Shown: in pieces, positions 3,144 to 62,345 of the stretch | How positions within the stretch are numbered: position 1 is the first letter of the stretch | How the letters are laid out: each line of letters opens with the position of its first letter | Source: Schaalia sp. HMT-172 | GTDB lineage: Bacteria > Actinomycetota > Actinomycetes > Actinomycetales > Actinomycetaceae | Direction: 5' to 3' | NCBI RefSeq assembly: GCF_030644365.1 | Contig: NZ_CP130058.1 | Span: 930,001 to 994,000, forward strand | Length of the DNA stretch: 64,000 nucleotides | Made by a program: the position numbers and the translations under genes | Notes under the pieces: generated by a model | What the model saw: only the letters and a program-made list of their open reading frames with translations | What the model was told of the DNA's origin: nothing | The model's database searches: none

Positions 3144-3937
3144 GCGTCGACCCGCGCTTCCCCCAGGCTCTCCTCGACGACGAGGCCGTGGCCGGTGCCC
3201 GGGTCCTCACCTCTCTTGCGGGGCGCCCGGATGCGCTCGTCGTGCTTGGTTCGGGTCTGGCTGGCGCCCTTGACGAGGCCTGGGGCGCGCCTGTGGGCGC
3301 GGTTCCCCTGGGTGATATCCCCGGTGTTGTCGCGCCTGTCGCGGATGGTCACGGCCGCGAGCTACGCGCCTATGAGACGAACGGGGGAGTGGTCCTCGTG
3401 GCCACAGGCCGCACGCACCTCTACGAGGGGTTGGGTGCCCGCCCCGTGACGGCCCTGTCTCGCGCCGGCGTTGCCGCCGGGATCAGCCGTGCGGTTCTCA
3501 CGAACGCGAACGGCTGCCTGAAGCCCTGGAACCTGGGCGACGTCATGGCGATCACCGACCACGTGAACCTCAGCGGCGCCTCGCCCTTCGATGGTCCGCT
3601 GTTCCTGGACGTGTCGGCCGTGTGGGATGCCCAGATGACGGGGGCTCTGCGCGGGGTCTGCCAGCGCGAGGGGACTTACGCGATCCTGCGCGGCCCCGAG
3701 TATCAGACGATGGCGGAGACCCGCATCCTCGCGGGCCTGGGCGTGGACTGCGTGGGAATGTCGACCGTCATGGAGGCGATCACCCTGCACGCGCTGGGCG
3801 TGCGCGTTGCCGGCATGTCGGTCGTCTCCGACCTGTCGTTCGCCGACGCCCCGACGGATCCGAGCGCCGTCGTCGAGGCGGCCTCGGCGGCTCGCCAGAC
3901 CGTGGTCGCTGGCATCGAGGCGGCCCTGGGCACCTGA
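3140..3937 (+). CDS. Purine nucleoside phosphorylase
   Basis: A 265-residue class II (trimeric-type) purine nucleoside phosphorylase, converting purine (deoxy)nucleosides plus phosphate to the free base and (deoxy)ribose-1-phosphate. Family signatures are VVLGSGLAG near the N-terminus, GRTHLYEG in the phosphate site region, TNANGCLKP, GPEYQTMAE and VGMSTVMEA. The TNANGC box differs slightly from the commoner TNAAGG. The GTG start sits inside the upstream permease stop (GTGA overlap). An exact copy of the repeated word ACGAGGCCGTGGC lies in codons 14-18 (3180-3192), and an inverted pair of the same word forms the terminator after the gene. Confidence 0.9.
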   Translation: MSVDPRFPQALLDDEAVAGARVLTSLAGRPDALVVLGSGLAGALDEAWGAPVGAVPLGDIPGVVAPVADGHGRELRAYETNGGVVLVATGRTHLYEGLGARPVTALSRAGVAAGISRAVLTNANGCLKPWNLGDVMAITDHVNLSGASPFDGPLFLDVSAVWDAQMTGALRGVCQREGTYAILRGPEYQTMAETRILAGLGVDCVGMSTVMEAITLHALGVRVAGMSVVSDLSFADAPTDPSAVVEAASAARQTVVAGIEAALGT

Positions 3938-3955
3938 ACGCAGAATCAGACGCAC

Positions 3956-4007
3956 ACGAGGCCGTGGCCGGGAGGTGGATGTCCACCGCTGCCGGCCACG
4001 GCCTCGT
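3956..4007. terminator. Bidirectional terminator built from an inverted word pair
   Basis: A 16-bp perfect stem (3956-3971 with 3992-4007) surrounds a second nested perfect palindrome GGTGGATGTCCACC at 3974-3987. It lies between the converging phosphorylase and MalY-type genes and can serve both. The outer stem is the word ACGAGGCCGTGGC and its complement, the same as in other terminators of this window. Confidence 0.85.
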
Positions 4008-4023
4008 CTCGTGCGAGAAACGA

Positions 4024-6856: not shown

Positions 6857-6898
6857 AGCCCCGGCCTCGTCGCCCTCATTCGGGCCGAGGTCGGGGCT
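6857..6898 (+). terminator. Terminator after gltX
   Basis: AGCCCCGGCCTCG (6857-6869) pairs with CGAGGTCGGGGCT (6886-6898) with one G-U pair. The 5' arm contains an exact GCCCCGGCCTCGT word at 6858-6870; the 3' arm is a diverged copy. Confidence 0.8.
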
Positions 6899-13952: not shown

Positions 13953-13981
13953 CCCTCCCGCCACCCGACAGCGGGGGAGGG
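13953..13981 (+). terminator. Hairpin between leuC and leuD
   Basis: CCCTCCCGC (13953-13961) can pair with GCGGGGGAGGG (13971-13981) with two bulged G. It is followed directly by an exact GCCACGGCCTCGT word (13981-13993). It may tune leuD expression or stabilise leuC mRNA, since both subunits are needed together. Confidence 0.45.
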
Positions 13982-14021
13982 CCACGGCCTCGTCCCCCAC
14001 GGAAGAAAAGACTGACGCACC

Positions 14022-16051: not shown

Positions 16052-16996
16052 ATGGCCGCATCGGGTGCGCGACGGGCCATGCTGTTGCTGGTCTCGTCGA
16101 TGTCGGCGGGCGGGCGCAGCGTGCGCCTGGGGCCGCGCATCGTGCGTATCCTGCGCGGGGGCGGCTGGGAGGTCGCCGTTCGCCTGACGACGCCGGGCGA
16201 CGATCCGGCAGCGATCGCGGGTGGGGTCGCCGCCGGCTCGATCGTGGCGGCCCTGGGCGGGGACGGGTACCTGAGCGCCGTCGCGCGCGGCTGCCACGAG
16301 TCCGACGCCCTTTTCGTTCCCATGCCCGGCGGACGCGGCAACGACCTGTGCCGAGCGCTCGGGATGGGCACGGACCCGTTGGTACGCGCGCGGCGCCTGG
16401 CGCCCCTCGGTCTTTCTTCCGACGAGGCCGGGGCCTCGTCCTCGGATTCGCTGGCCTCTCGGGTGCGTCCCCTGGATGGCATGTGGGTACGTTCGCGTGA
16501 CGGGGTTCGCCTGGCTCTCGGCATCGTGTCGATCGGCTTGGACGCGCGAGCTAATATCCTGGCCAACGAGTCCTCGCTGACGTCGGGTCCGTTGGCATAC
16601 GGCTACGGCGCCTTCGCGGCCCTGGCTTCGCACGAGCCCGCCGAGATCGTGGCGACCGTGGACGGTCGCGAGCGCAACATGAGCGGGTGGATCGCGTCGG
16701 TGTCCAACTCCGGGCGTTTCGGCGGCGGCATCACCCTGGTGGAGTCCTCGGATATGAGCGACGGCGTCCTCGAGGTGTGTCACGTGGGCCCCCTGTCGGT
16801 TGCGCGAGCCCTCCCGGTGCTGGCCAAGGTGGTGGCCGGACGCGCCAAGAATCACCCGGCGATTGAGGTGGAGAGCGCCCGCGTCGTGTCCTTCGCTGCC
16901 CCCGCGGGGATGGTCGCGATGGCGGACGGGGATCGGATCGCCTCGATTCCTTTCACCGTGGATGTCGCCCCGGGCGTCGTCTCCGTGCTCGTCTGA
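16052..16996 (+). CDS. Diacylglycerol-kinase-type lipid kinase
   Basis: A 314-residue member of the DAGK catalytic-domain family (DgkB/YegS), which phosphorylates diacylglycerol or related lipids. The nucleotide-binding GGDGYLSAVA motif and the MPGGRGNDLCRALG motif are clear. Between them and the C-terminal domain, about residues 120-140 form a Ser/Ala-rich insertion whose DNA holds a perfect 18-bp palindrome (16422-16439) made of the repeated word. It starts 4 bp after murA; murA, this kinase, plsC and gpsA together form an envelope-lipid neighbourhood. Confidence 0.85.
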   Translation: MAASGARRAMLLLVSSMSAGGRSVRLGPRIVRILRGGGWEVAVRLTTPGDDPAAIAGGVAAGSIVAALGGDGYLSAVARGCHESDALFVPMPGGRGNDLCRALGMGTDPLVRARRLAPLGLSSDEAGASSSDSLASRVRPLDGMWVRSRDGVRLALGIVSIGLDARANILANESSLTSGPLAYGYGAFAALASHEPAEIVATVDGRERNMSGWIASVSNSGRFGGGITLVESSDMSDGVLEVCHVGPLSVARALPVLAKVVAGRAKNHPAIEVESARVVSFAAPAGMVAMADGDRIASIPFTVDVAPGVVSVLV

Positions 16997-17873: not shown

Positions 17874-18520
17874 TTGCGGATATCGATGACCATGCGCGAG
17901 GGATTGGACAAGAATCCGATCTGGAACTGGCGCTCGGCGGGTGCCCCGATGACGACGTGCGTGTTGTCCTCGAAGGTCCCGTCCGAGACGATGTCGAGGT
18001 CGCCCGCGCGTGTGTGTTCCCCGGCCGGGTAGCTGCCCTTTGATGAGGTGGCGGTCATCGGCGTCCCGTCGAGGATGAGCTCCAGGACCGCCGCCCCCGC
18101 AACCTCGATGGGCAGGCCCCGTCCCTGCTCCAGCGCCTGGTCGCTCCACTGCGCCAGGCGGACGCCCGGGGAGCCCTCACCATCGAACTCCAGCACGACT
18201 CGGGTGAAGACTTCGTGCGAGGAGGCACGGATCGCGGTGAGGACCAGTGCCTTGTCCGGGTTGTCAGTGCGCGTAGGCGGCAGCATCGAGACCGAGGACA
18301 TCCAGTTGTCCGCGTTGATCGGCCTCGTCGCATCCAGGCCCGGCTCGTCGTTTCTGGGCGTCCCCTGGCCCGACTGCGCGCCCTCGGCGGCGGGGGAGTG
18401 GCTTGCCTCCGACGAGGCCGGGGCGGGCTCGGTCGGCCCGGCCGTCGGAGCGGAGGGCGAGCAGGCGGCGAGCGCGAGGACGGCGAGGGCGGCGGCAGGC
18501 AGCGCGCGGTGGTGAGACAA
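17870..18520 (-). CDS. Secreted lipoprotein with AMIN-like domain
   Basis: A 216-residue predicted lipoprotein: signal peptide with lipobox LAAC (Cys at residue 20), a Ser/Pro/Ala-rich linker to about residue 60, then a beta-rich domain with TRVVLEFDGEGSPGV and the C-terminal SRMVIDIRN typical of the actinobacterial AMIN-like family. Function is unknown; related AMIN domains bind cell-wall polymers. The start is a TTG at 18520 with an AAGGAGGGG ribosome site. The linker DNA contains an exact copy of the repeated 13-mer at 18412-18424. The gene is divergent from gpsA and converges with plsC. Confidence 0.8.
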   Translation of the reverse strand: MSHHRALPAAALAVLALAACSPSAPTAGPTEPAPASSEASHSPAAEGAQSGQGTPRNDEPGLDATRPINADNWMSSVSMLPPTRTDNPDKALVLTAIRASSHEVFTRVVLEFDGEGSPGVRLAQWSDQALEQGRGLPIEVAGAAVLELILDGTPMTATSSKGSYPAGEHTRAGDLDIVSDGTFEDNTHVVIGAPAERQFQIGFLSNPSRMVIDIRN

Positions 18521-23427: not shown

Positions 23428-23937
23428 TCAGAGGTCCAGGAAGAGGTTGATGTCGCCCGGGTCCGGGGTGTCGTCCAAGTCGGGGGCGTGGGTGAAGCCC
23501 AAGCGTGTGGCCACTGCGATCGAGGGGGTGTTGTCCTGCTTGGTGAGGACCCGAATCCGGTGCCCTGACCAGCGTGGGCGCGCGGCCTCGATGAGTGCGC
23601 GGCAGGCTTCGGTAACCAGACCTGATCCCTGGAACTCAGGTCGGATGCGGTAGGCGAGGTTGAGGACGCGCTCGTCACGGAACGTGCGCGCGGCCAGCCC
23701 CACGTAGCCGACGTAGGCGTCCGATTCGAGCATACGGGCCGTGCAGTAGCCAATACCGTCCGTCTCCCAGTCGCGCAGCCAGTCCTCGAGCCGTTCACGC
23801 GCCTCGTCAATACTGCGGTCGGGACCAGAAGGGTTAAAGAGGTTGACCTCGGGCATACGGCTCAGTGCATACAGCTCCTCGAGGTCGGTGAGCTGCACGG
23901 GCCTCAGTGAGAGCCTCGAAGTGTTGACAGCGTCCAT
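23428..23937 (-). CDS. GNAT-family N-acetyltransferase (RimJ/RimL type)
   Basis: A 169-residue acetyltransferase. The N-terminal SRLSLRPVQLTDLEELYAL and the acetyl-CoA-binding stretch LAYRIRPEFQGSGLVTEAC (the usual Q/RxxGxG/A form appears as QGSGLV) followed by VLTKQDNTPSIAVATRLGF are typical of RimJ/RimL-like proteins that acetylate ribosomal or small-molecule amines. ATG 23937 is chosen for its GGAGGTGG site; the frame extends upstream to 24021. It lies just inside the island's left edge. Substrate unknown. Confidence 0.82.
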   Translation of the reverse strand: MDAVNTSRLSLRPVQLTDLEELYALSRMPEVNLFNPSGPDRSIDEARERLEDWLRDWETDGIGYCTARMLESDAYVGYVGLAARTFRDERVLNLAYRIRPEFQGSGLVTEACRALIEAARPRWSGHRIRVLTKQDNTPSIAVATRLGFTHAPDLDDTPDPGDINLFLDL

Positions 23938-24124
23938 ATCCACCTCCATGTCACTGTTGCTGCTGGGGCCACGTGGTGTCATGTTGCGGAGCAACCGATG
24001 GTGGCCCCCCACCATTCTCACACGTGTCTCCCCGGTGGTGCCTGCGTTAGGTTTTAATGATACATGAGCGACTGTTGTTCAGGGGCTCAACGAACCTTGC
24101 GTGACATCGGTGAAGCGAGGACTC

Positions 24125-24286
24125 ATGAGCGATGAAGAATCCGGATTGCCGACTCCAAGTGAACCCAATGTTGAGGAATTCGCCATCAAGGACTATCGGA
24201 CTGATGAGTATTCAGAGGTGCGAACACTCGAAGAAGCGATCGAACTACGGAGTGCCAAGGCATGCTTCCGAGATGTGACTGAGTGA
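24125..24286 (+). CDS. Small acidic hypothetical protein
   Basis: A possible 53-residue product beginning MSDEESGLPTPSEPNVEE and rich in Glu and Asp, with one Cys and no membrane segment. ATG 24125 is preceded by CGAGGA, a fair ribosome site. Base composition is poorer in G+C than the core genes. No family is recognised. The 124 bp between its stop and the recombinase stop show nothing definite. Confidence 0.35.
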   Translation: MSDEESGLPTPSEPNVEEFAIKDYRTDEYSEVRTLEEAIELRSAKACFRDVTE

Positions 24287-24410
24287 GAATTCGCTGCCAA
24301 CTCTCCGTCGGGTATGAAAGAAATCGGGGTTCCTGAGCTCTTGGTCGGGCCGACGTAGCTGTCGGATGGAGATGATCGCCAATAGCTTGTGGAGCCACTC
24401 ACCACAGCGG

Positions 24411-25964
24411 TCAAATGCTCGTGCCGTCGTTGAACGTGATGGTGATTGTTCCGTCGGGGTGGATGGTGGCGTGGTCGACGAGGGCTCGCCAGGCCTCGGG
24501 GGTATAGGTGATTGCGGGGTTCTTGCTGCGGTACTGGTGGAATGCGGTGATGGCCGCGCGCTTGGCTTCAAGTTCGTGCAGCTGCCTTTCGAGGGACTCG
24601 ATTGCGCTGAGGTGGACTTGGTAGTCGGCTTCGAGCCGAGCCTGTTGGGCCTCGAACGCGCCAGGGTCGAAGCCAGCGTGTGCTGCGGCTTGAATGAGCT
24701 GGTTGATACGGCCTGCCACGCTGTCACGTGCGGCGACCGCCTGTGCGAGCTTGTCCTCAAGATCACGCGAGTTACCAAGCTGAGCGAGAGCAGCCTCAAG
24801 TACCTCTGGGCTTGGAGATGGCGCGAATTGCCCTATTGCCTGCTCAAACGTGGTAATTATTTCATCGTCTGTGATGTGCCTGGAGGTGCAGGGGGTCTCA
24901 TTTGTTTTGTCGTATCTCCGGTTACATCTCCACACTCGCTTTTCATACTTGCTTCCTGCGTGCCAAGTCTTAGACCCGTACCATCCCCCGCAGCACCCGC
25001 ACTGGATTCGGGAAGCAAATGGATGCGCGAAAGATCGTGGCCGGGTTGAACGTAGCTCAATTTCTCGTTGGACTTGGTCCCATACGGCTGGGGCAATGAT
25101 GGCCTCATGGTTACCGGTCACGTAGTACTGCGGGATCTCTCCTTCGTTGCGTTTAGTGGTTTTCGTCAGGAAGTCCACGGTGAAGGTTTTCTGCAGCAGC
25201 GCGTCGCCCTTGTATTTTTCATTGCGCAGGATCGAGTTGATGGTGGACACGTTCCAGGTCTTCTTCCCCAAGGGCGTAGGGATACCATCTTCGGTCAGGT
25301 GTGCGGCAATGGTTTTGGGTGAGTGCCCTGCCAGGTATTCCCGGTAGATGCGTCGCACGATCCTGGCCTGGTCTTCATCAACAGCCAGGCCCCCGTCGTC
25401 GCCTTTCTTGTAGCCCAGCAGGGAGGCGTAGGGCACCATGACCTTGCCTTCCGCAAAACGCCTGCGGTGTCCCCAGGTGACGTTCTCAGAGATGGAGCGG
25501 GATTCTTCCTGGGCAAGGCTACTCATGATGGTGATGAGTAGTTCGCCTTTCGAGTCCAGGGTCCAGATGTTTTCTTTCTCGAAGTAGACCTCCACTCCGG
25601 CTTCTTTGAGGGCCCGCACGCTGGTGAGCGAGTCGACGGTGTTGCGGGCAAACCTGGACACGCTCTTGGTCACGATCAGATCGATACGGCCAGCCAAAGC
25701 GTCGGTGATCATGGTTTGGAAGCCCTGCCGGTGCTTCGTTGAGGTTCCCGAAATCCCCTCATCGGCATACATGCCAACAAACTCCCAATCGGCCCGGCCT
25801 TGGATGTAGTCGGTGTAGTAGTCGATTTGTGCCTGGTAGGAGGATTGTTGTTCTTCCAGGTCCGTGGATACTCGCGCGTAGGCCGCGACCTTACGCCGGG
25901 AGCGCACCGTCGTAGGAGTGAGCGTCTTGGCGGGCCGTGCCGGGATGGTGGTGACGGTGGCCAT
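24411..25964 (-). CDS. Large serine recombinase (second of a tandem pair)
   Basis: A 517-residue site-specific recombinase. The resolvase domain has AAYARVSTDLEEQ with the catalytic Ser, DEGISGTSTKHRQGFQ, and VTKSVSRFARNTVD with the catalytic Arg residues. A recombinase DNA-binding domain (about residues 190-300), a zinc ribbon (CGCCGGW and later Cys residues, about 318-368) and a coiled coil (about 395-470) follow, the usual order for large serine integrases. It starts 4 bp after the stop of the upstream recombinase, whose last codons supply an AAAGGAG site. Probably needed jointly with that protein for element movement. Confidence 0.92.
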   Translation of the reverse strand: MATVTTIPARPAKTLTPTTVRSRRKVAAYARVSTDLEEQQSSYQAQIDYYTDYIQGRADWEFVGMYADEGISGTSTKHRQGFQTMITDALAGRIDLIVTKSVSRFARNTVDSLTSVRALKEAGVEVYFEKENIWTLDSKGELLITIMSSLAQEESRSISENVTWGHRRRFAEGKVMVPYASLLGYKKGDDGGLAVDEDQARIVRRIYREYLAGHSPKTIAAHLTEDGIPTPLGKKTWNVSTINSILRNEKYKGDALLQKTFTVDFLTKTTKRNEGEIPQYYVTGNHEAIIAPAVWDQVQREIELRSTRPRSFAHPFASRIQCGCCGGWYGSKTWHAGSKYEKRVWRCNRRYDKTNETPCTSRHITDDEIITTFEQAIGQFAPSPSPEVLEAALAQLGNSRDLEDKLAQAVAARDSVAGRINQLIQAAAHAGFDPGAFEAQQARLEADYQVHLSAIESLERQLHELEAKRAAITAFHQYRSKNPAITYTPEAWRALVDHATIHPDGTITITFNDGTSI

Positions 25965-25968
25965 GGGG

Positions 25969-27207
25969 TTACTCCTTTCCTGCCATCACGGGCTCAGCGG
26001 TGTGCGCGCCTCGTTTCATCACAGTGACTTTCCCGCTGGGGTAGACGGTGACCTGCTCGAGACGCTCAAGGACTTGCTGGTCATCCCACTCGCCTAATCC
26101 CAGGTGGGCGGTGATAGCGCTCTTGAGCTGGGCTTCCCTGATCTGAGGTGCCCGGCAAGGGTTGCCTTGCCCCCTCGTGGCGGTTTCGCACCACCAGTAC
26201 TTGTAGGAGATGTGCTTGCGGGTTTTGGTGCGCCGGTGGAAACGCCGCCCGCACTGGCTGCACACCACCCGATGAGTGAGCGCACACGTCCCGCCACTAG
26301 GGGTCAGGGCTCTGCCACCGGATTGGCGTCTGCGGGCGAGCTCGTCTTGGACCCGCCTCCAGGTGGCCTCGTCGATGATGGGAGGGTTTGCTCCCTGAAC
26401 CCAGTACTTGGGTAGTGCCCCGTCGTTGACGACGAGCTTTCCTCCAGGACCGTCGGTGTAGGTGGCTTGCAGCATTTCGTTTCCCACGTAGCGGGGGTTT
26501 TCCAGCCAGGTGCGGATCACCGAGCCGAGGAAGTTTCCTCCTTCTCGTGCGCGCAGCCCCTCAGCGTTGAGGCGGTCGGCAATAGCCTCGGGGCTCACCC
26601 CGGCCAGGTACTCGTCAAAGACGCGGCGCACAACCTGGGCCTCATCGTCGTTGATGTGCAGGCTCCCGCCTACCCAGGTGTATCCGTAGATGCGGTGGGA
26701 GTTGGTGACACCGGTCTTGTACCGGTTGCGGATCGCCCACTTCACGTTCTGTGACAGGGAGCGGGATTCTTCCTGGGCGAAAGAAGCTAACAGGGTGAGC
26801 ATGAGCTCACCTTCCGCGCTGGAGGTGTCGATGTTTTCTCTCTCGAACCGCACCGCCACCCCCAGGGCTGCAAGCTCGCGCACGCATGAGAGCAGGTCGA
26901 CGGTGTTGCGTGCCAGGCGGGAGATGGACTTGACCAGCAGGATCTGGAAGTCGCCGGCTCTGGCGTGGTCCATCATGTCAGCGAACCCGGGCCTTTTTCT
27001 GGTGGTGCCGGAGATTCCTTGGTCGGTGTAGATCCCGGCGAACTGCCAGGCAGGGTTAGCGTGGATGAGCTTGGAGTAGGCCGAGACCTGAGCAGCAAGG
27101 GATCCTGCTTGGGTCTCCGACATGGTTGAGACCCGGCAGTAGGCGGCCACGCGGATGCGGCTGGTGGGTGTGCGTCGTGGTGTAATGGTCTTCAAGTCTG
27201 GGCTCAT
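25969..27207 (-). CDS. Large serine recombinase (first of a tandem pair)
   Basis: A 412-residue serine recombinase with AAYCRVSTMSETQAGS (catalytic Ser), DQGISGTTRKRPGF and VKSISRLARNTVDLL in the catalytic domain, a recombinase domain, and a zinc ribbon CSQCGRRF with later Cys residues (about 318-365). It is shorter than its partner because it lacks most of the coiled-coil tail. The RBS AGGAG precedes ATG 27207. It is not a copy of the downstream recombinase; the two are distinct paralogues arranged as one operon with two small upstream genes. Confidence 0.92.
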   Translation of the reverse strand: MSPDLKTITPRRTPTSRIRVAAYCRVSTMSETQAGSLAAQVSAYSKLIHANPAWQFAGIYTDQGISGTTRKRPGFADMMDHARAGDFQILLVKSISRLARNTVDLLSCVRELAALGVAVRFERENIDTSSAEGELMLTLLASFAQEESRSLSQNVKWAIRNRYKTGVTNSHRIYGYTWVGGSLHINDDEAQVVRRVFDEYLAGVSPEAIADRLNAEGLRAREGGNFLGSVIRTWLENPRYVGNEMLQATYTDGPGGKLVVNDGALPKYWVQGANPPIIDEATWRRVQDELARRRQSGGRALTPSGGTCALTHRVVCSQCGRRFHRRTKTRKHISYKYWWCETATRGQGNPCRAPQIREAQLKSAITAHLGLGEWDDQQVLERLEQVTVYPSGKVTVMKRGAHTAEPVMAGKE

Positions 27208-27286
27208 CTGCTGCTCCTTTCTGCCCGCGTGGGTCTCGCCGGTGGTGTTCTGGTGTGTGACATGAACGCTCTACACGCCGGGTTTA

Positions 27287-27469
27287 TCAAGTCCTGGCGC
27301 GGGTAAACACCACCCTGGTCTCATCCCAAGAAGCGGCGAGCTGGCGGTGAATGGCGCGTACCTGACTGGCGGTGAGCAGCCCTCGGGAGGCAAGGGCATC
27401 AAGGAAGTCCAGGTCTGCTGCCGTCTGGGTTTCTGCCCGCCAGTACGCGCCCGTGGTGCGGCTGGTCAT
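27287..27469 (-). CDS. Small SHOCT-like protein of the recombinase cassette
   Basis: A 60-residue ORF whose second half, LDFLDALASRGLLTASQVRAI up to LAASWDE, resembles the short helix-turn-helix SHOCT pattern seen in small proteins next to recombinases and phage genes. Its ATG overlaps the stop of the zinc-ribbon ORF (ATGA-type 4-bp overlap), supporting translation coupling. Function unknown; the family match is by eye only. Confidence 0.55.
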   Translation of the reverse strand: MTSRTTGAYWRAETQTAADLDFLDALASRGLLTASQVRAIHRQLAASWDETRVVFTRART

Positions 27470-27612
27470 GGGCGACCACCCCGGGTTCCGAAACGGGTGC
27501 GGATGTAGCAGGCGTGCGTGCAGTACTTGCGGTGCTTGTTGCCATACGCCTCGAAGGTCGCCCCGCAGCCGGCACAGGTGTGGGTGGTGATGGCGCGCCG
27601 CTCAAGCATCAT
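27466..27612 (-). CDS. Small zinc-ribbon protein, promoter side cut by IS3 insertion
   Basis: A 48-residue product with CAGCGATFEAYGNKHRKYC then THAC, a C-x2-C/C-x3-C metal-binding pattern. The start at 27612 is only 11 bp from the end of the IS3-family element, and no ribosome site remains upstream, so either the gene was longer or its leader was lost by the insertion. It overlaps the next small gene by 4 bp and heads the recombinase operon. Confidence 0.5.
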   Translation of the reverse strand: MMLERRAITTHTCAGCGATFEAYGNKHRKYCTHACYIRTRFGTRGGRP

Positions 27613-27653
27613 CGGGTGGGTGTGGGGTTGTGCGCAAGTTGTTGACGGTTTGT

Positions 27654-28519
27654 TTATGCGGCTTTTGTCCAGGCCGCTTGGTGTAGTTCGTATTCGATGG
27701 GGGATTTGCCGCCGAGGCTGGTGTGGATGCGGCGGCGGTTGTAGAAGTCTTCGATCCAGGTGGCGACCCCGGTGTAGACCTGGTCGCGGGTGGTGAAGGT
27801 ACGCCGGTAGTAGTACTCGGTTTTGAGGGTGGCCCAAAAGGATTCGGCCATGGCGTTATCCCAGCACACTCCGGCCCGCCCCATCGACACTCTTCCTTTC
27901 ACGGCGCGCATGTAGGCTGCCAGCTTCTCGGAGGTGAACTGTGTTCCCCGATCAGCGTGGAGCACGACCCCAGTGGGGAAGCCGCCACGGGTGGTGGCGG
28001 CCATGTCGAGCGCGGTGATGACCAGGTCGGTGCTTTGCTGCTCACCCATGGCGTATCCCAGGACTCTACGCGAGTGCGCATCACGCACGGCGCACAGGTA
28101 GACCCAGCCTTGGGCGCACCGCAGGTAGGTCAAATCCGTGATCCACACCCGGTCCAGGGCGCCTTGATCCCACTGGCGGGCGCAGTGATCCTCATGGGCC
28201 ACAGGTCCGCGCCCGCCGCGCTTGGCCGGGCGTGGGTGCGTGTTCAGGCCTGTCAGGCCCTGGCGGCGCATCGACGCGGCGACCGCACGCACCCCCACAT
28301 CCACGCCCGCGCGCGCCAGAGCATGGCGGATGCGAGGAGCCCCATAGGTGCCACCCGACACCTCGTGTTCCCAGGCCACCGCCTCATCCAAACGCCGACG
28401 CGCCGATGCGCGCTTGCCCGCTGGGGTGCACGGTTTTTCCACGCGTAATAGCCCGCGCGCGTGACCCCTAGAACGCTGGCCATCAAGGTAATCGAGTAGG
28501 AAGCCTTCTGCGCGTCCAT
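27654..28519 (-). pseudogene. IS3-family orfB transposase, frameshifted
   Basis: The DDE integrase core is intact in one frame (28442 to 27654): VWITDLTYL, VLHADRGTQFTS and CWDNAMAESFWATLK carry the three acidic residues. The N-terminal HTH part (MDAQKASYSITLMASVLGV then GYYAWK) is in a different frame starting at 28519. The frames meet at a run of five A (minus strand GTGGAAAAACC); adding one A restores YYAWKKPCTPAGKRAS as a continuous protein. So a 1-bp deletion (or a sequencing error) is the simplest explanation. Confidence 0.8.
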
Positions 28520-33583: not shown

Positions 33584-33637
33584 ACGAGGCCGTGGCTTCC
33601 CCGTGCCGGTGAGCGCGGGGGCGCTGCGGCCTCGTCA
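33584..33637 (+). terminator. Terminator after clpP1-clpP2
   Basis: ACGAGGCCGTGGC (33584-33596) faces GCTGCGGCCTCGT at 33623-33635, giving a long stem with one mismatch plus flanking TG/CA pairs. The left arm is an exact repeated word, the right arm a diverged copy. clpX therefore has its own promoter in the following 180 bp. Confidence 0.75.
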
Positions 33638-36722: not shown

Positions 36723-39855
<3,133 letters not shown>

Positions 39856-41473: not shown

Positions 41474-41618
41474 GTGTCAAGGATCGACGAGGCCGGAGCT
41501 GGCCTCGCTCTCACCATGCCCCACGCGAGGCTCAGCCTTGTGCGTACACGGCCGCCACGGCCTCGTACCGGTGTTCCCAGGGTTGTCTGATGAAATTCTG
41601 CGCGCGCTCCCCGATAGT

Positions 41619-45189: not shown

Positions 45190-45255
45190 ACGAGGCCGTG
45201 GCCATCTCAGCAATCCGGTACCGATCGGGGGAGCGCGAGCTGGCCACGGCCTCGT
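45190..45255. terminator. Bidirectional terminator built from an inverted word pair
   Basis: ACGAGGCCGTGGCCA (45190-45204) pairs perfectly with TGGCCACGGCCTCGT (45241-45255) around a 36-nt insert. It separates the converging permease and fadD genes. The stem word equals that of the hairpin at 3956-4007, but the inner sequences differ. Confidence 0.85.
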
Positions 45256-45296
45256 TCATGTGAGCGTCGGTCGCGCGTGCGTTAGTTGTGCGTGCG

Positions 45297-48029: not shown

Positions 48030-48132
48030 ACCGTCACCCTAACAACGCCCGCACACATCTGCGGCACGCGTAGTGATGGAAGACTAGGCATTGAGCGCTT
48101 CATCACCGCCTGATGTCCTCCTTCTCGGCGAG

Positions 48133-48465: not shown

Positions 48466-48558
48466 ACCGTCTTCCTAACAACGCCCATGCACCTCTGCGG
48501 TACGCGTGGTGATGGAAGCCTTGGCATTGGCCGCAGGACCGCCACCTGATGTGCGAAA

Positions 48559-48589
48559 GGGGGCCGCCCGTGGAACACCACGAGCGGCC
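48559..48589. repeat. 31-bp inverted repeat, left copy, and terminator of the AAA ATPase gene
   Basis: GGGGGCCGCCCGTGG, AACA and CCACGAGCGGCC form an imperfect hairpin downstream of the ATPase gene. It matches the reverse complement of 51194-51224 at 30 of 31 positions, including the loop. Confidence 0.75.
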
Positions 48590-48665
48590 GCAAGTAGAGC
48601 TGCCAAACGAGGGGGACATGAGTCAGAAACGTCGAAGCTGTGAATGGCTAATGTGCTAACTCAGA

Positions 48666-51038: not shown

Positions 51039-51193
51039 GTGCCCTCCTTTGGGTTGTGTCTTGACAGTTGTAGCCTAACGGCGGAGAGTGTGGTCGGCGC
51101 GTGTTATGCACTTGTCTGACAAGTACAAGGCAAAGTGTGGTGGGTCTCAGTGTTCGCGCTGAGTGGCGCGATTGCGAAATAGGTATGCAAAGG

Positions 51194-51224
51194 GGCCGCC
51201 CGTGGTGTTCCACGGGCGGCCCCC
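51194..51224. repeat. 31-bp inverted repeat, right copy, and terminator of valS
   Basis: Forms a perfect hairpin (GGGGCCGCCCGTGG with CCACGGGCGGCCCC around TGTT, 51192-51223) just downstream of valS on the minus strand. Its reverse complement matches 48559-48589 at 30 of 31 positions. Confidence 0.8.
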
Positions 51225-51240
51225 AAGGCCAGCTTAAAGG

Positions 51241-53955: not shown

Positions 53956-54180
53956 AATTGAGTTGTCTCCATCCGAGTCGTGGACTGTTTGCCCCACTAG
54001 CGTACTTTTGTGCGGGTGCGCCGGTCCAACGCAGCGCCGACGCAGCGGGTGCGGGTTGCTCACACGGGCCGTTACAAAAGCTCCTCTCGTGGCGCGGTCG
54101 GGTGAAGTGAAGCGCGCGGGGATACCGTGGTGTCAGGCAGGGGAGCCGGGACGAGGCCTCCTCGGGAAAGGGGATCAACC

Positions 54181-55533
54181 GTGAGCACGCAATCGCTGGG
54201 CGAGCAGACCGTGGACCTGTTGGGGCGCCTGGTGCGCCTGGGCTGCGTCAACGACCTGACCGCCGATTCGGGCGGAGAGGAGCGAGCCGCCGACCTCCTT
54301 GAGGACTTCTTCGCCGACCTGCCCGTGTCTATCGAACGGATCACCCCGCACCCTGGGCGCACCACCCTCGTAGTCACGGTGGAGGGCGCGGACCTCGGCT
54401 GCGCCGGCACGCCCCTGACCCTCATGGGGCACACGGACGTCGTGCCCGTCGACGAGGCCAAGTGGACACGCGATCCCTTCGGCGCGCAGATCGAGGACGG
54501 CGTCATGTGGGGGCGCGGCACAGTCGACATGCTCCACCTGACCGCCGCGATGGCCGTCGTCACCCGCGAAGTCGCTCGCCGCGCCCAGGACGGTAATCCT
54601 CCCGCTCGCCCCTTGGTGTTCGTGGCCGCCGCAGACGAAGAAGCACGAGGAGGGCTCGGCGTGCCGTGGATCGGTGAACACCGGCCGGACGCCTTCCCCT
54701 GGGAGGCGGCTCTGTCCGAAATGGGAGGGGCGCACATTCGCGGGCGCCGCGGAGGTGACAGCGTCGTCGTGGTCGTCGGCGAAAAGGGCGCAGCCCAGCG
54801 CCGCCTGCACATCCGGGGCGATGCCGGCCACGGCTCGGTTCCGCTGGGCCGCATGAGCGCCGTCGAGCGGCTCGCCCAGGTGAGCGCGGCGCTGTCCTCC
54901 GCTCGCTGGCCCGCCGCCACGGACGAGGTCTGGGCCTCCTTCGTGCGCGCCTTCGAGTTCGATGAAACGACCGAAATCAGCCTCATCAACGGCACCTACG
55001 AGGGCAACTACGCTGAGTTCGCCGACCTGGCAGCCTTCGCGCACGCCATCTCCCACGTGACCGTCGCCCAGACCGTGGCCCGCTCGGGCGGGCCCATCAA
55101 CGTCATGCCCTCCCACGCCACCCTCGAGCTGGACATCCGCACGCTGCCCGGCATCGACGACGATGACGTGGACGCCGCCATCGCGGCGGCCCTCGGCGAC
55201 CTCGCCGAGCACGTGACTATCGAGCGCCTCCTCAGCGAGCCCGCCACGGCCTCGTCGATCGACACCGGCTTGTACCGAGCGATCGAAGCGGCGCTGAGTC
55301 GGCGCTACCCGGGCGTGCGCGTCGTCCCCGTCCTCATGCCCGGTGGGACCGACCTGCGTGCGGCCCGCAGGCGTGGAGGCATCGGATACGGGTTCGGGGC
55401 CTACGACAGCGGCGCCAGCCTGGGCCAGGTGTACTCCCAGCTACACGCCCACGACGAACACATCGCCCTTGCGGACGTGCGCGCGACCGCCGAGGTCCTC
55501 CACGAGGTCACGACCACCTACCTGGGCGCATAA
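54181..55533 (+). CDS. M20-family metallopeptidase
   Basis: A 450-residue M20/M25/M40-type peptidase. Metal and catalytic residues are in LMGHTDVVPVDE (His, Asp), WGRGTVDML (bridging Asp) and AADEEARGG (general-base Glu plus ligand); a dimerisation domain spans about residues 190-310, and a C-terminal His is in QLHAHDEHIAL. It resembles actinobacterial dipeptidase/ArgE-type proteins. The start GTG 54181 has AAAGGGG upstream; the longer frame to 54127 is less likely. The coding sequence contains an exact repeated word at 55243-55255, and the stop lies at the first base of a word-pair terminator. Confidence 0.87.
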   Translation: MSTQSLGEQTVDLLGRLVRLGCVNDLTADSGGEERAADLLEDFFADLPVSIERITPHPGRTTLVVTVEGADLGCAGTPLTLMGHTDVVPVDEAKWTRDPFGAQIEDGVMWGRGTVDMLHLTAAMAVVTREVARRAQDGNPPARPLVFVAAADEEARGGLGVPWIGEHRPDAFPWEAALSEMGGAHIRGRRGGDSVVVVVGEKGAAQRRLHIRGDAGHGSVPLGRMSAVERLAQVSAALSSARWPAATDEVWASFVRAFEFDETTEISLINGTYEGNYAEFADLAAFAHAISHVTVAQTVARSGGPINVMPSHATLELDIRTLPGIDDDDVDAAIAAALGDLAEHVTIERLLSEPATASSIDTGLYRAIEAALSRRYPGVRVVPVLMPGGTDLRAARRRGGIGYGFGAYDSGASLGQVYSQLHAHDEHIALADVRATAEVLHEVTTTYLGA

Positions 55534-55582
55534 CGAGGCCGGGGCCAGGTCACGTGAACAGTGAACCCAGCCCCGGCCTCGT
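55533..55582. terminator. Bidirectional terminator built from an inverted word pair
   Basis: ACGAGGCCGGGGC (55533-55545) pairs perfectly with GCCCCGGCCTCGT (55570-55582); it begins on the last base of the M20 gene stop codon and lies before the converging antiporter gene. Confidence 0.85.
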
Positions 55583-55599
55583 CAATGAGAGCGACGGTA

Positions 55600-56964
55600 T
55601 TACAGGACCATCGCCGCGATCCAACCACCGATCAACAGCGGAATGTTGTAGTGGATGAACTCGGGGATGACCGTGTCCCGCATGTGGTCGTGCTGACCAT
55701 CCACGTTCAGACCGGCTGTCGGGCCAAGCGTCGAGTCGGAAGCGGGAGAACCGGCGTCGCCCAGCGCGCCCGCCGTGCCGATGATCGCGACCGTGGCGAC
55801 GGGGGAGAAGCCCAGCGTCACGCACAGGGGCACGTAGATCGCGGAGATGATCGGCAGGGTCGAGAAGGACGAGCCGATGCCCATCGTGATGACCAGGCCC
55901 ACCAGGAGCATGATGACGGCGGCCAGCGCCTTGGAGCCGTTGAACATCGCGGAAGTCTGCTGGACGAGGGGCTCAATCTGGCCCGACGCCTTCAGAACCG
56001 CGGCGTAGCCCTGCGCGGTGATCATGATGAGGCCGATGAGGCTCATCATCTTCATGCCGCCACTGAACACGTCGTCGGCCTGCTGCCACGGCACGACGCG
56101 CATGGCGAGCATGAGGCACAGGCCCACGAGGGCACCCACGAGCAGCGGGTCGGCCTCGGAATCCATCTTGGTCAGGACAGCCTGGATGACGAAGCATGCG
56201 ACGAGGGCCACGACGGCCGCCCAGACCTTGACCATGTTGATCGGCTTGTCATCGCCCGTGCTGAACTCCGTCTCACGCTGCTCGTACTCGCGCGGCTTGC
56301 GGTAGGAGACGAGCAGGGCGATGGCACAGCCCACGGCCATCGAGGCGGCGGGGATCGCCATGGCGGTCATCGGGTTGACGACACCCTCGACAGCCAGGCC
56401 CGCGTCCTCAATATTCTTGTAGAGAATGTCGTGCAGGAAGATACGACCAAAGCCAATCGGCACAAACATGTAGGTGGTGACGATGCCGAAGGTGATCGCA
56501 CAGGCGACCAGGCGGCGGTCCATCTTCAGCTCGTTCATGACACCGATGAGCGGGGGCACCAGCAGCGGAATGAACGCGATGTGAATCGGGATGAGGTTCT
56601 GGCTCATCACGCCCATGACGAGGACTCCACCGAGGATGCCCCACTTCGCGGAGCGAGCCACGCGCGCCGAGTTAGAGTCGTCAGCGTTGCGCAGCTTAGC
56701 GATGATCCAGTTCGCCAGCAGGCGCGGCAGGCCCGAGTGGGCCACCGACATCGCGAACGCGCCGAGCAGGGCGTAGGACAGGGCGATCTTAGCGCCGCCG
56801 GCGAGGCCGTCCTGGAAGGCGACCATCGTGCCGGATATACCCATTCCGGCCACCAGGCCGCCCACCAGCGAGGCGACGAAAAGAGAGATGACGACGTGCA
56901 CGCGAGCGATGCTGAGGGCCAGCATGACAATCACGGAGAGCACGACTGCGTTGAAAAGCAACAT
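55600..56964 (-). CDS. Na+/H+ antiporter-family membrane protein
   Basis: A 454-residue protein with about 12 hydrophobic segments. The N-terminal part (MLLFNAVVLSVIVMLALSI) and the later GIGSSFSTLPIISAIYVP and GDAGSPASDSTLGPTAGLN motifs are typical of the YuiF-like Na+/H+ antiporter family (an NhaC-related group), some members of which are suspected to carry amino acids. ATG 56964 is preferred as it begins the first membrane helix. True substrate not known. Confidence 0.85.
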   Translation of the reverse strand: MLLFNAVVLSVIVMLALSIARVHVVISLFVASLVGGLVAGMGISGTMVAFQDGLAGGAKIALSYALLGAFAMSVAHSGLPRLLANWIIAKLRNADDSNSARVARSAKWGILGGVLVMGVMSQNLIPIHIAFIPLLVPPLIGVMNELKMDRRLVACAITFGIVTTYMFVPIGFGRIFLHDILYKNIEDAGLAVEGVVNPMTAMAIPAASMAVGCAIALLVSYRKPREYEQRETEFSTGDDKPINMVKVWAAVVALVACFVIQAVLTKMDSEADPLLVGALVGLCLMLAMRVVPWQQADDVFSGGMKMMSLIGLIMITAQGYAAVLKASGQIEPLVQQTSAMFNGSKALAAVIMLLVGLVITMGIGSSFSTLPIISAIYVPLCVTLGFSPVATVAIIGTAGALGDAGSPASDSTLGPTAGLNVDGQHDHMRDTVIPEFIHYNIPLLIGGWIAAMVL

Positions 56965-57039
56965 GAGCGTTCCTGTGTTGAGGGTGCGCGAAAGCGCCAA
57001 ATAAGGGGGAGATAAGCCGCGTCGCGGCAGGGGGTAGTG

Positions 57040-57846
57040 TCAGCCGAGATGGGAATCGGCGTGGATGGAGGCGTCGACGGCACCTACCAGTGCACTCGAC
57101 AAACCACCTTCCTCGGCGGCCAGCAATCCTGCGATCGTGGTGCCGCCGGGGCTCGTCACCCGGTCAATGAGTTGCGCGGGGATCGTGCCCGCCTCGCGCT
57201 CGGCGAGGAGCAGCGCGGCCGACCCCGCCATCGCCTGCGCCGCGATCTCGACGGCGCTGTCCTTGGGCAGCCCGTACTTGAGGCCCGCGCGGGCGAAAGA
57301 ATCAATGATCTGGAAATACCAGGCCGGGGAGCACGAAGCCAGGGCCTGGAACACAGGGAAATAGTCCTCGTCGATGAGGACGGTACGCCCAACCGAGTTC
57401 ATGAGGTCGCGCACGGCGTTGACCTGATCGTCGGTGGTGCGGGTGGCCGTCAGGGCCGTCATGGACTGCCTGACGGTGGCCGCCACGTTCGGCATCACGC
57501 GAATGAGGGGAATGCCCGAGCCGAAATCCTGCGTAATCTGGTCGAGGGTACGCCCGGCGGCCAGGGACACGACGCACGCGTCGGGGCGTGAGACCACGCT
57601 GGGGGCTATCTCCTTGATGACCGCGCGCTGATCCTTGGGCTTGACGGCCAGGATGACGATGTCGGCCTGGCGGGCCAAGGACACGTTCGAGGACGCGGCG
57701 GTCGCGCCCAGCTCGTCGGCCAAGTCGCAAGCCTTGTCGGGCGTGCGGTTGGAGAAGATCAGCGTCGCGGGATCGACACCGGACGCAACGGCACCGCGAG
57801 CGATGGCCTGGGCCATGGCTCCCGTCCCGATAAATCCGATGCGCAT
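57040..57846 (-). CDS. proC: Pyrroline-5-carboxylate reductase
   Basis: A 268-residue NAD(P)H-dependent enzyme for the last step of proline synthesis. The Rossmann start is MRIGFIGTGAMAQAIARG; the dimer/active-site segment is ASCSPAWYFQIIDSFARAGL, and the C-terminal signature VTSPGGTTIAGL is complete. Start ATG 57846 agrees with the family. It is codirectional with the antiporter gene 75 bp downstream. Confidence 0.94.
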   Translation of the reverse strand: MRIGFIGTGAMAQAIARGAVASGVDPATLIFSNRTPDKACDLADELGATAASSNVSLARQADIVILAVKPKDQRAVIKEIAPSVVSRPDACVVSLAAGRTLDQITQDFGSGIPLIRVMPNVAATVRQSMTALTATRTTDDQVNAVRDLMNSVGRTVLIDEDYFPVFQALASCSPAWYFQIIDSFARAGLKYGLPKDSAVEIAAQAMAGSAALLLAEREAGTIPAQLIDRVTSPGGTTIAGLLAAEEGGLSSALVGAVDASIHADSHLG

Positions 57847-57930
57847 GAGGGGCTCCCCGCGTGTGGTGGTTACTTGCCACGCAGCCTACCCGCATTTTGC
57901 CTGCACTTGGTACAGTGGTCGCACTGTGAG

Positions 57931-57981
57931 ACGAGGCCGGGGCGAAGACACCTGAAACGGCGACCTTGGCCCCGGCCTCGT
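57931..57981 (-). terminator. Terminator after the HerA-like gene, inverted word pair
   Basis: ACGAGGCCGGGGC (57931-57943) pairs perfectly with GCCCCGGCCTCGT (57969-57981). It lies downstream of the HerA-like ATPase gene on the minus strand and upstream of proC. Confidence 0.82.
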
Positions 57982-58009
57982 GAAGGGGAAAACGGCGAGA
58001 ACGCGCGCC

Positions 58010-59854
<1,845 letters not shown>

Positions 59855-60060
59855 GGTGGTGTCTTTCGGGGCTGGGGCGCATCGCGCCCGGGGCTTCGTC
59901 GTTACTGGAACAGTATCCCTTGGGACGCCTGTCTCACGCTCGTTCAAGGAGGTCATCGCGCTGTGGCGCCCATCCACAGGCCCACTGGCCGCGTCGCGGT
60001 TATCCACAGGGGCACGAATCCGGCGCGACACCGGCGGCGCAGCAGGCATAGCGTCGACGA

Positions 60061-60798
60061 ATGAACCCTCCACGATGGCTCGCGCGCCGCAGGATGGCGG
60101 CCCTGACCAAGGCCGTCTACGACAGCGCGCTGCAAGAAGACGAACCACCCGAACCCACCGCCCTGCGCCTCTTACCCGGAGGTGCCACCGCGGCCGCCCT
60201 CCTTATCGTCCTCGTCCTCCTCGCCTGCATCGGCGTGTGGCGCCACGCGACGGCCGCCGAACACGCAGCCGAGCGGGAGGCCGAGCAATCCGCTCAGCAG
60301 GAAGCCGACACGCAGGAGCAGGGGCCCCAAACCCCCACCAGCCGAGGTGCCAACGCGCCGACCAACACCCCCGCCACCGACCAGGTCATCGTCTACGTCT
60401 CGGGGGCAGTCACGACCCCCGGAGTCCTCACCCTGCCCGCCTCCTCCCGCGTCGTCGACGCCATCACCGCCGCCGGTGGAGCACGCGAGGACGCCAACCT
60501 CGACACGATCAACCTCGCGCGCCCACTCGTCGACGGAGAACACATCCACGTCGGACTCATCGGGGAACCCGAGACAACCACAGCGCCAGGCGAGGCCCCC
60601 ACGCAGGCATGCGTGCGCCTCGACACCGCCACCGCCACCGACCTGCAAACACTGCCCGGAATCGGCCCTGCCCTGGCCGCCCGCATCATCGACTACCGCA
60701 CAACCCACCCCCACATCTCCTCCGTCGACGCGCTCGACGAGGTGCCTGGCATCGGCCCCAGCCTCATCGAAAAAATACGACCCGGAGTGTGCCCATGA
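60061..60798 (+). CDS. comEA: ComEA-family DNA-binding protein
   Basis: A 245-residue competence protein: cytoplasmic N-terminus, one transmembrane segment (AAALLIVLVLLACIGVW, about residues 42-58), a Gln/Pro-rich linker, an SLBB domain (VIVYVSGAVTTPGVLTLPAS, about 108-165) and paired helix-hairpin-helix motifs (LQTLPGIGPALAARIIDY, LDEVPGIGPSLIEKI). ComEA binds incoming double-stranded DNA at the cell surface. Its stop overlaps the comEC start by 4 bp. Convergent in function with the word repeats described elsewhere. Confidence 0.93.
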   Translation: MNPPRWLARRRMAALTKAVYDSALQEDEPPEPTALRLLPGGATAAALLIVLVLLACIGVWRHATAAEHAAEREAEQSAQQEADTQEQGPQTPTSRGANAPTNTPATDQVIVYVSGAVTTPGVLTLPASSRVVDAITAAGGAREDANLDTINLARPLVDGEHIHVGLIGEPETTTAPGEAPTQACVRLDTATATDLQTLPGIGPALAARIIDYRTTHPHISSVDALDEVPGIGPSLIEKIRPGVCP

Positions 60799-62345
60799 CC
60801 GACACCCGCGCCCCACGCATGGTCGACCTCCGCCTCATGCCCACAGCGATCGCCGCCTGGGCCGCCAGCTGGTGGGCTACCGCCCACCCCGTCCCCTGGC
60901 CGCTCATTGCCGCCTGTGCGCTCGCGGCCACCGCATGCGCCGCCTCCTACGCGTGGACACACAGGCACTCCCGACCTCCCCGGCACGCCCTCACCCCACC
61001 CCGATCCCTCCGCCTGGCCTCCGCCCTCCTCCTGGCCGCCACCGCCTGCGCGCTCGCTGTCTCGTCGGAGGCGGGCCGCTCCTACCTGGCTGATCCGGCT
61101 CGCACGGGCTCCGGGCCCATCCACGCGAAGGTACTCCTGATGCGCGACCCCGCCCCGGCCTCGTCGGGCTTTTCAACGAGGCGCCGAGCACGCGTCACGA
61201 TCCTCGCAGTCTCAGTGGGACAGCGGTGGCTGACCTCCGGCGCCACCGCCCTGGTCAGCGCTCCCTCATGGCGGGACGCCGCCCGCGGCGACGTGTACGA
61301 GCTCGAGGGGAGCCTGGACACCACATTCGCCGCAGAGGCACCATCCGTGGGGGCGATCCGAGCCCGCAGCGCCCGACTCGTCGAGCGCCCCGGCGGACTC
61401 GACGCCTGGAGACGCGACACGCACCGGGCCTTCACGGACGCGTGCCAGACCCTGCCCCGTGACGCGCGCGGACTCGTCCCAGGAATGTCCATCGGCGACG
61501 ACCGACTGATGCCCTCCGACCTCGACGACGCCATGACAGCCACCTCCCTGACACACCTGACGGCCGTGTCCGGCTCCCACATCGTCATCATCCTGGCCAC
61601 TCTCAACCTCCTCCTGCCCGCGCGCAAGCCCCTGCGCGTCGGAGCTACGATCCTCGTCCTGGGCACCATCGTCGTGCTCGTCGGCCCCGAAGCATCCGTG
61701 CTCCGATCCGTCTGCGTCGCCTCGATCGCCGCCCTAGGCCTGGTACTCGGACGCGAAGGACAAGCCATCGCAGCACTGTGCGCGGTCGTCACCGCGACAC
61801 TCCTCATCGACCCATGGGCCTCCCGATCCTACGGATTCGCGCTGTCCGCGCTCGCGGCCCTGGCCGTCGTAGGCCCCTCCGCCGCTCTCGCACGAGGGGT
61901 CAAGCGGCGTGTCAGGGGCGACACGCGGGTCGGGAAAGCCCTGCGCCGCCTGGCCGAACTGGTGTGCGTGCCCGCCCTGGCCGAGCTGTTCACCGCGCCC
62001 CTCATCGTCTCCCTGTCCGGCACCGTCCCCGTGTGGGGGATTGGCGCCAACGTCGCCGCCGAGCCCGCGGTGCCCGTGGCTACGCTCGCGGGCCTGTCGG
62101 GTGCTCTCCTCGCGCCGATCAGCCCTCCCATGTCGAGCGCCTGTGCGCGCGTCGCCTCCTGGGCGACCGGCTGGATTGCTGGAGCCGCACGATTCTTCGC
62201 CGGGATGCCCGGAGCGGGGCTTCGGGTGCCCGGCGGGGGAGCGACACTCCTGAGCATCTACGGGTGCGCGGGACTTGGATGGGTGGCGTGGCGGGCGTGG
62301 AAACGCTGGGTGTTGCCCCGCACGGACGAGGCCCGGGACCCGTGA
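60795..62345 (+). CDS. comEC: ComEC/Rec2 DNA-uptake channel, short form
   Basis: A 516-residue polytopic protein. An N-terminal OB-like extracytoplasmic region (VTILAVSVGQRWLTSGATA) is followed by the ComEC core LTHLTAVSGSHIVIIL, VLRSVCVASIAALGLVLGREG and WASRSYGFALSALA. It lacks the C-terminal metallo-beta-lactamase domain found in many ComEC proteins; in actinobacteria this shorter form is known. An exact repeated word lies in the linker at 61152-61164. It forms an operon with comEA and precedes holA, a usual order. Confidence 0.92.
   Translation: MTDTRAPRMVDLRLMPTAIAAWAASWWATAHPVPWPLIAACALAATACAASYAWTHRHSRPPRHALTPPRSLRLASALLLAATACALAVSSEAGRSYLADPARTGSGPIHAKVLLMRDPAPASSGFSTRRRARVTILAVSVGQRWLTSGATALVSAPSWRDAARGDVYELEGSLDTTFAAEAPSVGAIRARSARLVERPGGLDAWRRDTHRAFTDACQTLPRDARGLVPGMSIGDDRLMPSDLDDAMTATSLTHLTAVSGSHIVIILATLNLLLPARKPLRVGATILVLGTIVVLVGPEASVLRSVCVASIAALGLVLGREGQAIAALCAVVTATLLIDPWASRSYGFALSALAALAVVGPSAALARGVKRRVRGDTRVGKALRRLAELVCVPALAELFTAPLIVSLSGTVPVWGIGANVAAEPAVPVATLAGLSGALLAPISPPMSSACARVASWATGWIAGAARFFAGMPGAGLRVPGGGATLLSIYGCAGLGWVAWRAWKRWVLPRTDEARDP

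Follow-up and report, generated by a model that had tools for sequence, protein, structure and literature searches.

Why does one 13-letter word, GCCMCGGCCTCGT, recur along the chromosome of an actinobacterium, in some places as inverted pairs between genes and in others as single copies inside them? Here, we address this question for Schaalia sp. HMT-172 (GCF_030644365.1), starting from a stretch of 64,000 nucleotides, referred to as the window, which spans positions 930001-994000 of a single 2,533,704-base contig (NZ_CP130058.1; 99.99% complete). The motif, written GCC[A/C]CGGCCTCGT with an optional trailing (C), is in our reading a putative DNA uptake sequence that occurs in dialects and would be read by a Tad-type competence system, an interpretation built on sequence comparison to which we give a probability of roughly three in four.

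The abundance of the word is its most direct property. All 18 exact copies listed by a first-pass annotation of the window are present at their starts (18/18), and 14 further copies differ by one base, where at least seven had been claimed; among the seven starts given for these, three were placed correctly and four lay 1-10 bases off (4696 becoming 4697, 20828 becoming 20838, 37788 becoming 37780 and 59692 becoming 59695). These 32 copies with at most one mismatch compare with a mean of 0.72 and a maximum of 3 over 100 dinucleotide shuffles. The whole genome holds 482 exact copies of the 13-mer, 244 forward and 238 reverse, while the reversed word, used as a control, has none. Markov and codon-aware expectations were computed on 464 of the 2534 kb, namely the window and 20 further 20-kb stretches of the same genome. 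In this sample, the A and C forms number 64 and 40 against 0.29 and 0.30 under an order-4 Markov model (218x and 133x), a total of 104 copies against 0.59, so that the genome-wide comparison proposed with the annotation comes out far above background; the word is present in the window and in 20/20 of the other stretches. A substitution table indicates that A and C are interchangeable at position 4, that the first base is chiefly G or A, that the CCTCG stretch is near-invariant and that C is favoured directly after the last base.

The exact copies in the window are placed as follows, with relatives of the same genus given by code (G085, G114 and so on).

3180..3192, minus strand: word copy inside the predicted gene 3140-3937
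3956..3968, minus strand: word copy, left arm of an inverted pair between converging genes; hairpin z -7.7
3995..4007, plus strand: word copy, right arm of the 3956 pair; exact match, folds
6858..6870, plus strand: word copy just past the gene of a tRNA synthetase of class I (E and Q); an imperfect partner downstream folds with it
13981..13993, plus strand: word copy past an aconitase-family gene; C form in G114, last base lost in G150
16422..16434, minus strand: word copy inside the predicted gene 16079-16996
18412..18424, minus strand: word copy inside the predicted gene 17870-18520, a low-scoring call
33584..33596, minus strand: word copy forming one arm of an intergenic hairpin, the opposite arm being degenerate; in G165 this boundary carries an inverted pair of the C dialect
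39385..39397, plus strand: word copy inside the beta-galactosidase-like gene 36723-39761
41554..41566, plus strand: word copy, intergenic; exact match
45190..45202, minus strand: word copy, left arm of an inverted pair between converging genes; exact match, folds
45243..45255, plus strand: word copy, right arm of the 45190 pair; identical in G114 and G085
55243..55255, plus strand: word copy inside an M20-peptidase-like gene
55533..55545, minus strand: word copy, left arm of an inverted pair between converging genes; shares one base with the stop of 54181-55533
55570..55582, plus strand: word copy, right arm of the 55533 pair; exact match, folds
57931..57943, minus strand: word copy, left arm of an inverted pair between tandem genes; exact match, folds
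57969..57981, plus strand: word copy, right arm of the 57931 pair; in G175 an inverted pair of the C dialect stands at this boundary
61152..61164, plus strand: word copy inside comEC; identical in G085, with 2 substitutions in G114 and 4 in G150

The double distribution that the annotation described, pairs on the one hand and single copies in genes on the other, extends to the 464-kb sample, where, on our own simple gene predictions, 54 of the 104 copies fall in genes, 48 are intergenic and 2 lie on gene edges. Density is about fourfold higher outside genes than inside (0.611 against 0.141 per kb). The 54 intragenic copies nevertheless stand against a mean of 3.7 and a maximum of 8 in 100 synonymous-codon shuffles within genes, a procedure that preserves the codon counts of each gene and not codon context, and 49 of them are confined to two of the six frame-strand combinations. 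Gaps between converging genes hold 14 copies in 10.7 kb, those between diverging genes 8 in 20.1 kb (p 0.0065).

Richness in the 13-mer is restricted to one genus among the genomes searched. In a family survey of 200 genomes, 35 of the own genus and 165 from 35 other genera, at least 93 copies were found in 12 of the 35 genus genomes, namely the own genome (482), G066 (420), G139 (385), G009 (374), G042 (370), G153 (349), G085 (333), G196 (278), G114 (250), G159 (164), G182 (129) and G150 (93), the remaining 23 holding 0-36. The other 35 genera hold 0-17 copies in each genome, and 197 genomes from the rest of the phylum, with sizes up to 9.9 Mb, hold 0-18. The comparison with related species suggested earlier thus yields 12 rich genomes and relatives that carry one-base variants, and equal abundance in unrelated genomes, which the annotation had considered, was not seen in the 362 genomes outside the genus. 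A search for dialects beyond the genus by means of the shorter core CGNCCTCGTC in 151 family genomes was dropped, as codon use still confounds short cores in other genera; samples of three genomes of genus g4 (60-80 kb each) had no intergenic enrichment of the word, and for both reasons the claim is kept to the own genus. In G070, G116 and G088 of genus g15, CGNCCTCGTC reaches 10-15x its reversed control with no match at the level of the type A TadA described below, an excess for which codon use or another dialect could account.

Within the genus, relatives are rich in one-letter variants of the word: G near the own species, T in G155, C in, for example, G188, and mixtures in several others. 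We defined dialects by the leading base in CG[G/T/C]CCTCGT and counted the 10-mers CG[G,T,C]CCTCGTC over the 35 genus genomes. The counts for G, T and C are 732, 127 and 132 in the own genome, 186, 593 and 127 in G155, 187, 355 and 1245 in G188, 178, 355 and 997 in G192, 230, 383 and 774 in G173, and 9, 16 and 3 in G132; the top 10-mer is G in 17 genomes, C in 14 and T in 4, the last set including G132 with its 16 copies. Codon-aware counts were made on samples of 12 genomes, 56-464 kb each. In noncoding DNA, CG[G,T,C,A]CCTCGT was observed against expectation at 72/1.5, 2/1.0, 3/2.0 and 6/1.1 in the own genome, at 2/0.4, 22/0.4, 1/0.4 and 0/0.4 in G155 and at 0/0.3, 0/0.2, 16/0.2 and 0/0.2 in G188. 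A single base is far ahead in the own genome, G114, G085 and G150 (G), in G155 (T) and in G188 (C); the lead is weak in G165 (C with 6, G with 3), in G173 and G175 (C with 1 and 3) and in G125 (G with 3), and G171 is mixed. The same words exceed shuffled expectation in genes, with 161 copies of CGGCCTCGT against 57 in the own genome, 76 of CGTCCTCGT against 13 in G155 and 20 of CGCCCTCGT against 6 in G188; G132 is almost word-free, with 6 copies of CGTCCTCGT in genes against 1.2. On a tree of HolA and ComEC from 30 genomes (FastTree, midpoint root, no support values), the seven G-led genomes with at least 93 13-mers (own, G114, G066, G139, G085, G153 and G150) form a single clade, nested among genomes rich in C or T words. 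Two C-led genomes, G159 (164 13-mers) and G182 (129), fall outside that clade, and G is likewise the leading base, at low counts, in G102, in G157 and in the G125 group.

Other repeated strings were met in the same samples. The top of the intergenic counts in G102, GCACACAA, was rejected as a dialect, being a local inverted element whose arms lie at L195 18083-19230 (two copies about 1 kb apart) and L197 14643-15615. The noncoding sample of G188 (L071, L103, L104) contains, beside the dialect word, a repeated AACAGAGCGGA / AGCGGACTTCG string, with 9-10 copies in 9.4 kb. In G157 (L188-L191, L073), CCGCCTCG (36 against 7.5) and GCCGAGGC (35 against 8.0) lead, perhaps as a further variant of the core.

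How individual copies come and go can be followed by aligning the own words to three syntenic relatives (G085, G114 and G150), for which 40 of 54 site-by-genome comparisons were alignable. Of these, 35 are gap-free, 14 with the word identical and 21 with substitutions; insertions could hide in the 14/54 that did not align. Scored by strict identity, in which an A/C change counts as loss, intergenic words are identical above background in G085 (5/7 against 0.18) and G150 (3/10 against 0.16). At the boundary of genes 25 and 26 an inverted C pair stands in G165 (1/3 comparable genomes), with partial arms in G188, and at that of genes 40 and 41 an inverted C pair stands in G175 (1/5 comparable), with single dialect words in G155 and G188.

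Genes of the kind used for DNA uptake occur in the window, and two Tad loci lie elsewhere in the genome. The relevant features of the window, together with a mobile segment, are as follows.

60094..60798, plus strand: comEA-like gene, SLBB and helix-hairpin-helix domains (Pfam HHH_3 1.1e-15, SLBB 6e-15)
60795..62345, plus strand: comEC, competence DNA channel (Pfam Competence 7e-37)
23428..28379, no strand assigned: word-free mobile segment that encodes an rve integrase as well as two large serine recombinases and lies upstream of the tRNA-Gly/tRNA-Pro genes 29985-30235

Across the genus, ComEC is found in 33/35 genomes, the two without it being 70% and 88% complete assemblies, DprA in 34/35, prepilin peptidase in 34/35 and ComEA in 30/30 of the stretches searched. 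The Tad loci of the own genome lie at 1.82 Mb (type A) and 2.35 Mb (type B), type A adjoining genes read by eye as prfB, ftsE and ftsX. Its operon encodes a T2SSE ATPase and two T2SSF proteins, along with four small proteins, one of them Flp-like (56 aa) and three pilin-like (141, 132 and 115 aa); the 132-aa protein carries ERGDASVEFLGILVVLVIPVLYIV near its start, close, by eye and at the N-terminus only, to the ERGAATVEFLGLTLVLLIPVVYLM reported for the N-terminus of Micrococcus luteus TadF in the excerpted account of that species (PMC6370729). A T2SSE search found the type A ATPase in 28/35 genus genomes, assignment resting on E-value and profile range with 13 checked by tblastn; a profile of this ATPase agrees for the 12 genus genomes included, 9 with and 3 without. 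The ATPase was missing from G125, G132, G146, G186 and G194 (96-99% complete), from G192, an assembly of 310 contigs that is rich in C words, and from G198, which is 70% complete. G132 is also almost devoid of words, but G125, G146, G186 and G194 keep weaker ones; the link of the words to the type A pilus is imperfect.

A mechanism that would connect these observations runs as follows. DNA uptake would run through ComEA, ComEC and a competence pilus of the Tad type, and the pilus or ComEA, where we would locate the reader, would bind word-bearing fragments better, so that DNA of the cell's own kind enters preferentially. Recombination would then favour alleles that carry the word, and by this proposed drive copies would build up through point mutation wherever the sequence tolerates them: most densely between genes, above all converging ones, sometimes as inverted pairs that form hairpins, and more sparsely inside genes in tolerated reading frames. 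Should the specificity of the reader drift by one base, the words of the genome would follow, giving dialects round a constant CCTCG core. The mobile segment fits this scheme in that it holds no word between 23.4 and 28.4 kb; the genes that flank it (17 and 22) are separated by about 0.36 kb in both G114 and G150, but by 9.6 kb in G085.

The best known parallel is the DNA uptake sequence (DUS) of the Neisseriaceae, described in the sections available of PMC3630211 as having eight dialects, a CTG core, inverted pairs, congruence with phylogeny and one genome with two dialects. The Schaalia word resembles it in being short and of high copy number, in occurring both in genes and as intergenic inverted pairs, and in having dialects that differ by few bases round a constant core and track phylogeny. 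The words are unrelated, however, and on the written strand GCC[A/C]CGGCCTCGT lacks the CTG core given in those sections; the present host belongs to a Gram-positive phylum, its dialects are less clean and its uptake preference is inferred. As the pilus loci are Tad-type by their ATPase and neighbours, a type IV minor pilin like ComP is not expected here. The uptake signal sequence (USS) of the Pasteurellaceae is, in the portion of PMC5031613 consulted, likewise over-represented genome-wide, linked to competence and divided into dialects, the first and last of which the present motif shares, while its sequence is unrelated to that 9-base USS; the USS receptor is predicted to be the minor pilin ComN, according to an extract of PMC12616744. 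For machinery, the closest parallel is M. luteus, in which Flp/Tad pili are needed for transformation and which shares comEA, comEC and a Tad cluster that includes small proteins resembling Flp, TadE and TadF; the excerpted account of that system (PMC6370729) mentions no uptake sequence.

We lean, with less assurance than for the tag itself, towards a broader claim: that uptake sequences would here have evolved independently for a third time, and for the first time in Actinomycetota and in Gram-positive bacteria, with a Tad pilus in place of a type IV pilus as the reader; that dialects one base apart, at least three in number (CGGCCTCGT, CGTCCTCGT and CGCCCTCGT), would act as barriers between species of the genus; and that the words would decay once the pilus is lost. 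No report of an uptake sequence in Actinobacteria was found in the open-licence PubMed Central (PMC) texts searched, so far as their searchable portions go, preprints being outside that scope. If true, a third case in another phylum with another pilus would mean that the self-tagging of DNA evolves repeatedly; it would predict that these actinobacteria are naturally transformable, show which tag aids the entry of DNA into a genus with which genetic work is difficult, and offer, in dialects within one genus, a comparative system for DNA recognition by Tad pili.

Several observations weigh against an uptake tag of this kind. As regards the machinery, Pfam matches none of the four small proteins of the type A locus, the Flp-like one and the three pilin-like ones, and competence in this genus is not reported in the open-licence PMC literature searched, in the parts consulted (including PMC10633639). 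Although they lack the type A ATPase, G125, G146, G186 and G194 keep 141-188 copies of CGGCCTCGTC against 6-15 for the controls; slow decay after loss of the type A pilus, or use of the type B pilus, is our guess at a cause. A single word-free element of 5 kb is little proof. Leading bases are mixed in many genomes, with G, T and C at 495, 538 and 532 in G167, 591, 785 and 1012 in G159 and 277, 415 and 552 in G184, for which we can only guess at interspecies exchange or a relaxed reader, and the 10-mer totals include a background of codon use, about 130 each for T and C in the own genome. The C word is weak in the noncoding DNA of G173 (1 copy) and G175 (3), and in G102, G157, G161, G163 and G171 none of the three words clearly leads although the pilus ATPase is present, the noncoding samples covering all of these save G163. 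Conservation of intergenic words relative to background is mixed across the three relatives, since in G114 they are not kept above it (2/9 against 0.19), and no word was found in G155 at the boundary of genes 25 and 26 or in G165 and G173 at that of genes 40 and 41.

Of the other explanations, the one that survives best, though we think it unlikely, is that the word is a chromosomal binding site of a resident protein, either nucleoid-associated or a replication, segregation or recombination signal such as Chi or the FtsK orienting polar sequences (KOPS). Its presence throughout the sampled stretches and the window would also fit such signals, and dialects could track a changing DNA-binding protein. 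Chi and KOPS are strand-biased, however, whereas the word splits 31:27 on one replichore and 22:24 on the other in the 464-kb sample, with coordinate 0 assumed to be the origin, and 244:238 overall; the excess in converging gaps and the inverted pairs would also be unexpected. Of the strand and gene-end biases that had been suggested for examination, the former is absent in this comparison, and the latter corresponds to the fourfold intergenic density and the enriched converging gaps.

That preference for converging genes would suit a terminator or RNA-hairpin element, or a repetitive extragenic palindromic (REP)-like sequence, spread by copying or kept for RNA folding. The four inverted pairs of the window (3956/3995, 45190/45243, 55533/55570 and 57931/57969) are intergenic; their 13-bp stems are perfect and their folding is strong (z -5.1 to -7.7), and a further two window copies, outside exact pairs, fold with imperfect partners. 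The first-pass annotation, which had set the pairs in terminators, was right that they exist, and they fold as hairpins, but a terminator role is poorly supported: no T tract was seen in the 30 bases on either outer side of them, and a terminator scan of 44001-64000 matched 0/3 inverted pairs, a weak control given that loops were limited to 3-8 bases. Because a stem requires no particular 13 bases, a need for hairpins leaves a fixed word and its dialects unexplained. Unlike REP elements and bacterial interspersed mosaic elements, moreover, the word has 54/104 copies in genes, merely 12 neighbours within 120 bases of each other in the 464-kb sample (8 inverted, 4 direct), and differences between aligned relatives that arise by substitution (35/40 gap-free, 14/54 not alignable). 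We therefore judge this explanation very unlikely, and of the two possibilities that the annotation left side by side, an uptake tag or a REP-like family, sequence tests favour the first and these figures, for which no search for a RAYT transposase was made, disfavour the second.

A restriction or methylation mark that shapes the word by avoidance or use, for example around the GGCC contained in the G dialect, is highly improbable, in that the T and C words lack GGCC and behave in the same way in G155 and G188, and the least variable part, CCTCG, is non-palindromic. Least credible of all is the view that the word is generated by the codon or amino-acid preferences of a GC-rich genome, for while the shorter core is codon-friendly, as the annotation had allowed for that core alone (57 copies of CGGCCTCGT are expected in the own genes after shuffling), and CGNCCTCGTC exceeds its reversed control in many family genomes, some with no type A Tad match (G070), codon use does not explain a 13-mer that is in such excess inside genes (54 against 3.7) and four times denser outside them, a 9-mer at 72 against 1.5 in noncoding DNA, or 0-18 copies in the 362 genomes outside the genus.

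The 464-kb sample also contains a second dispersed element, absent from the window and comparable to the local GCACACAA element of G102. In it, AATT(GCAT/ACGT)GCGA occurs between genes in inverted pairs, the two arms separated by about 80 bases and the flanks conserved in part. Its 37 arms make up 18 pairs and one single; it is present in L009, L011, L012, L013, L015, L025 and L026 and is clustered in L010 (1057-18669) and L027 (525-9093).

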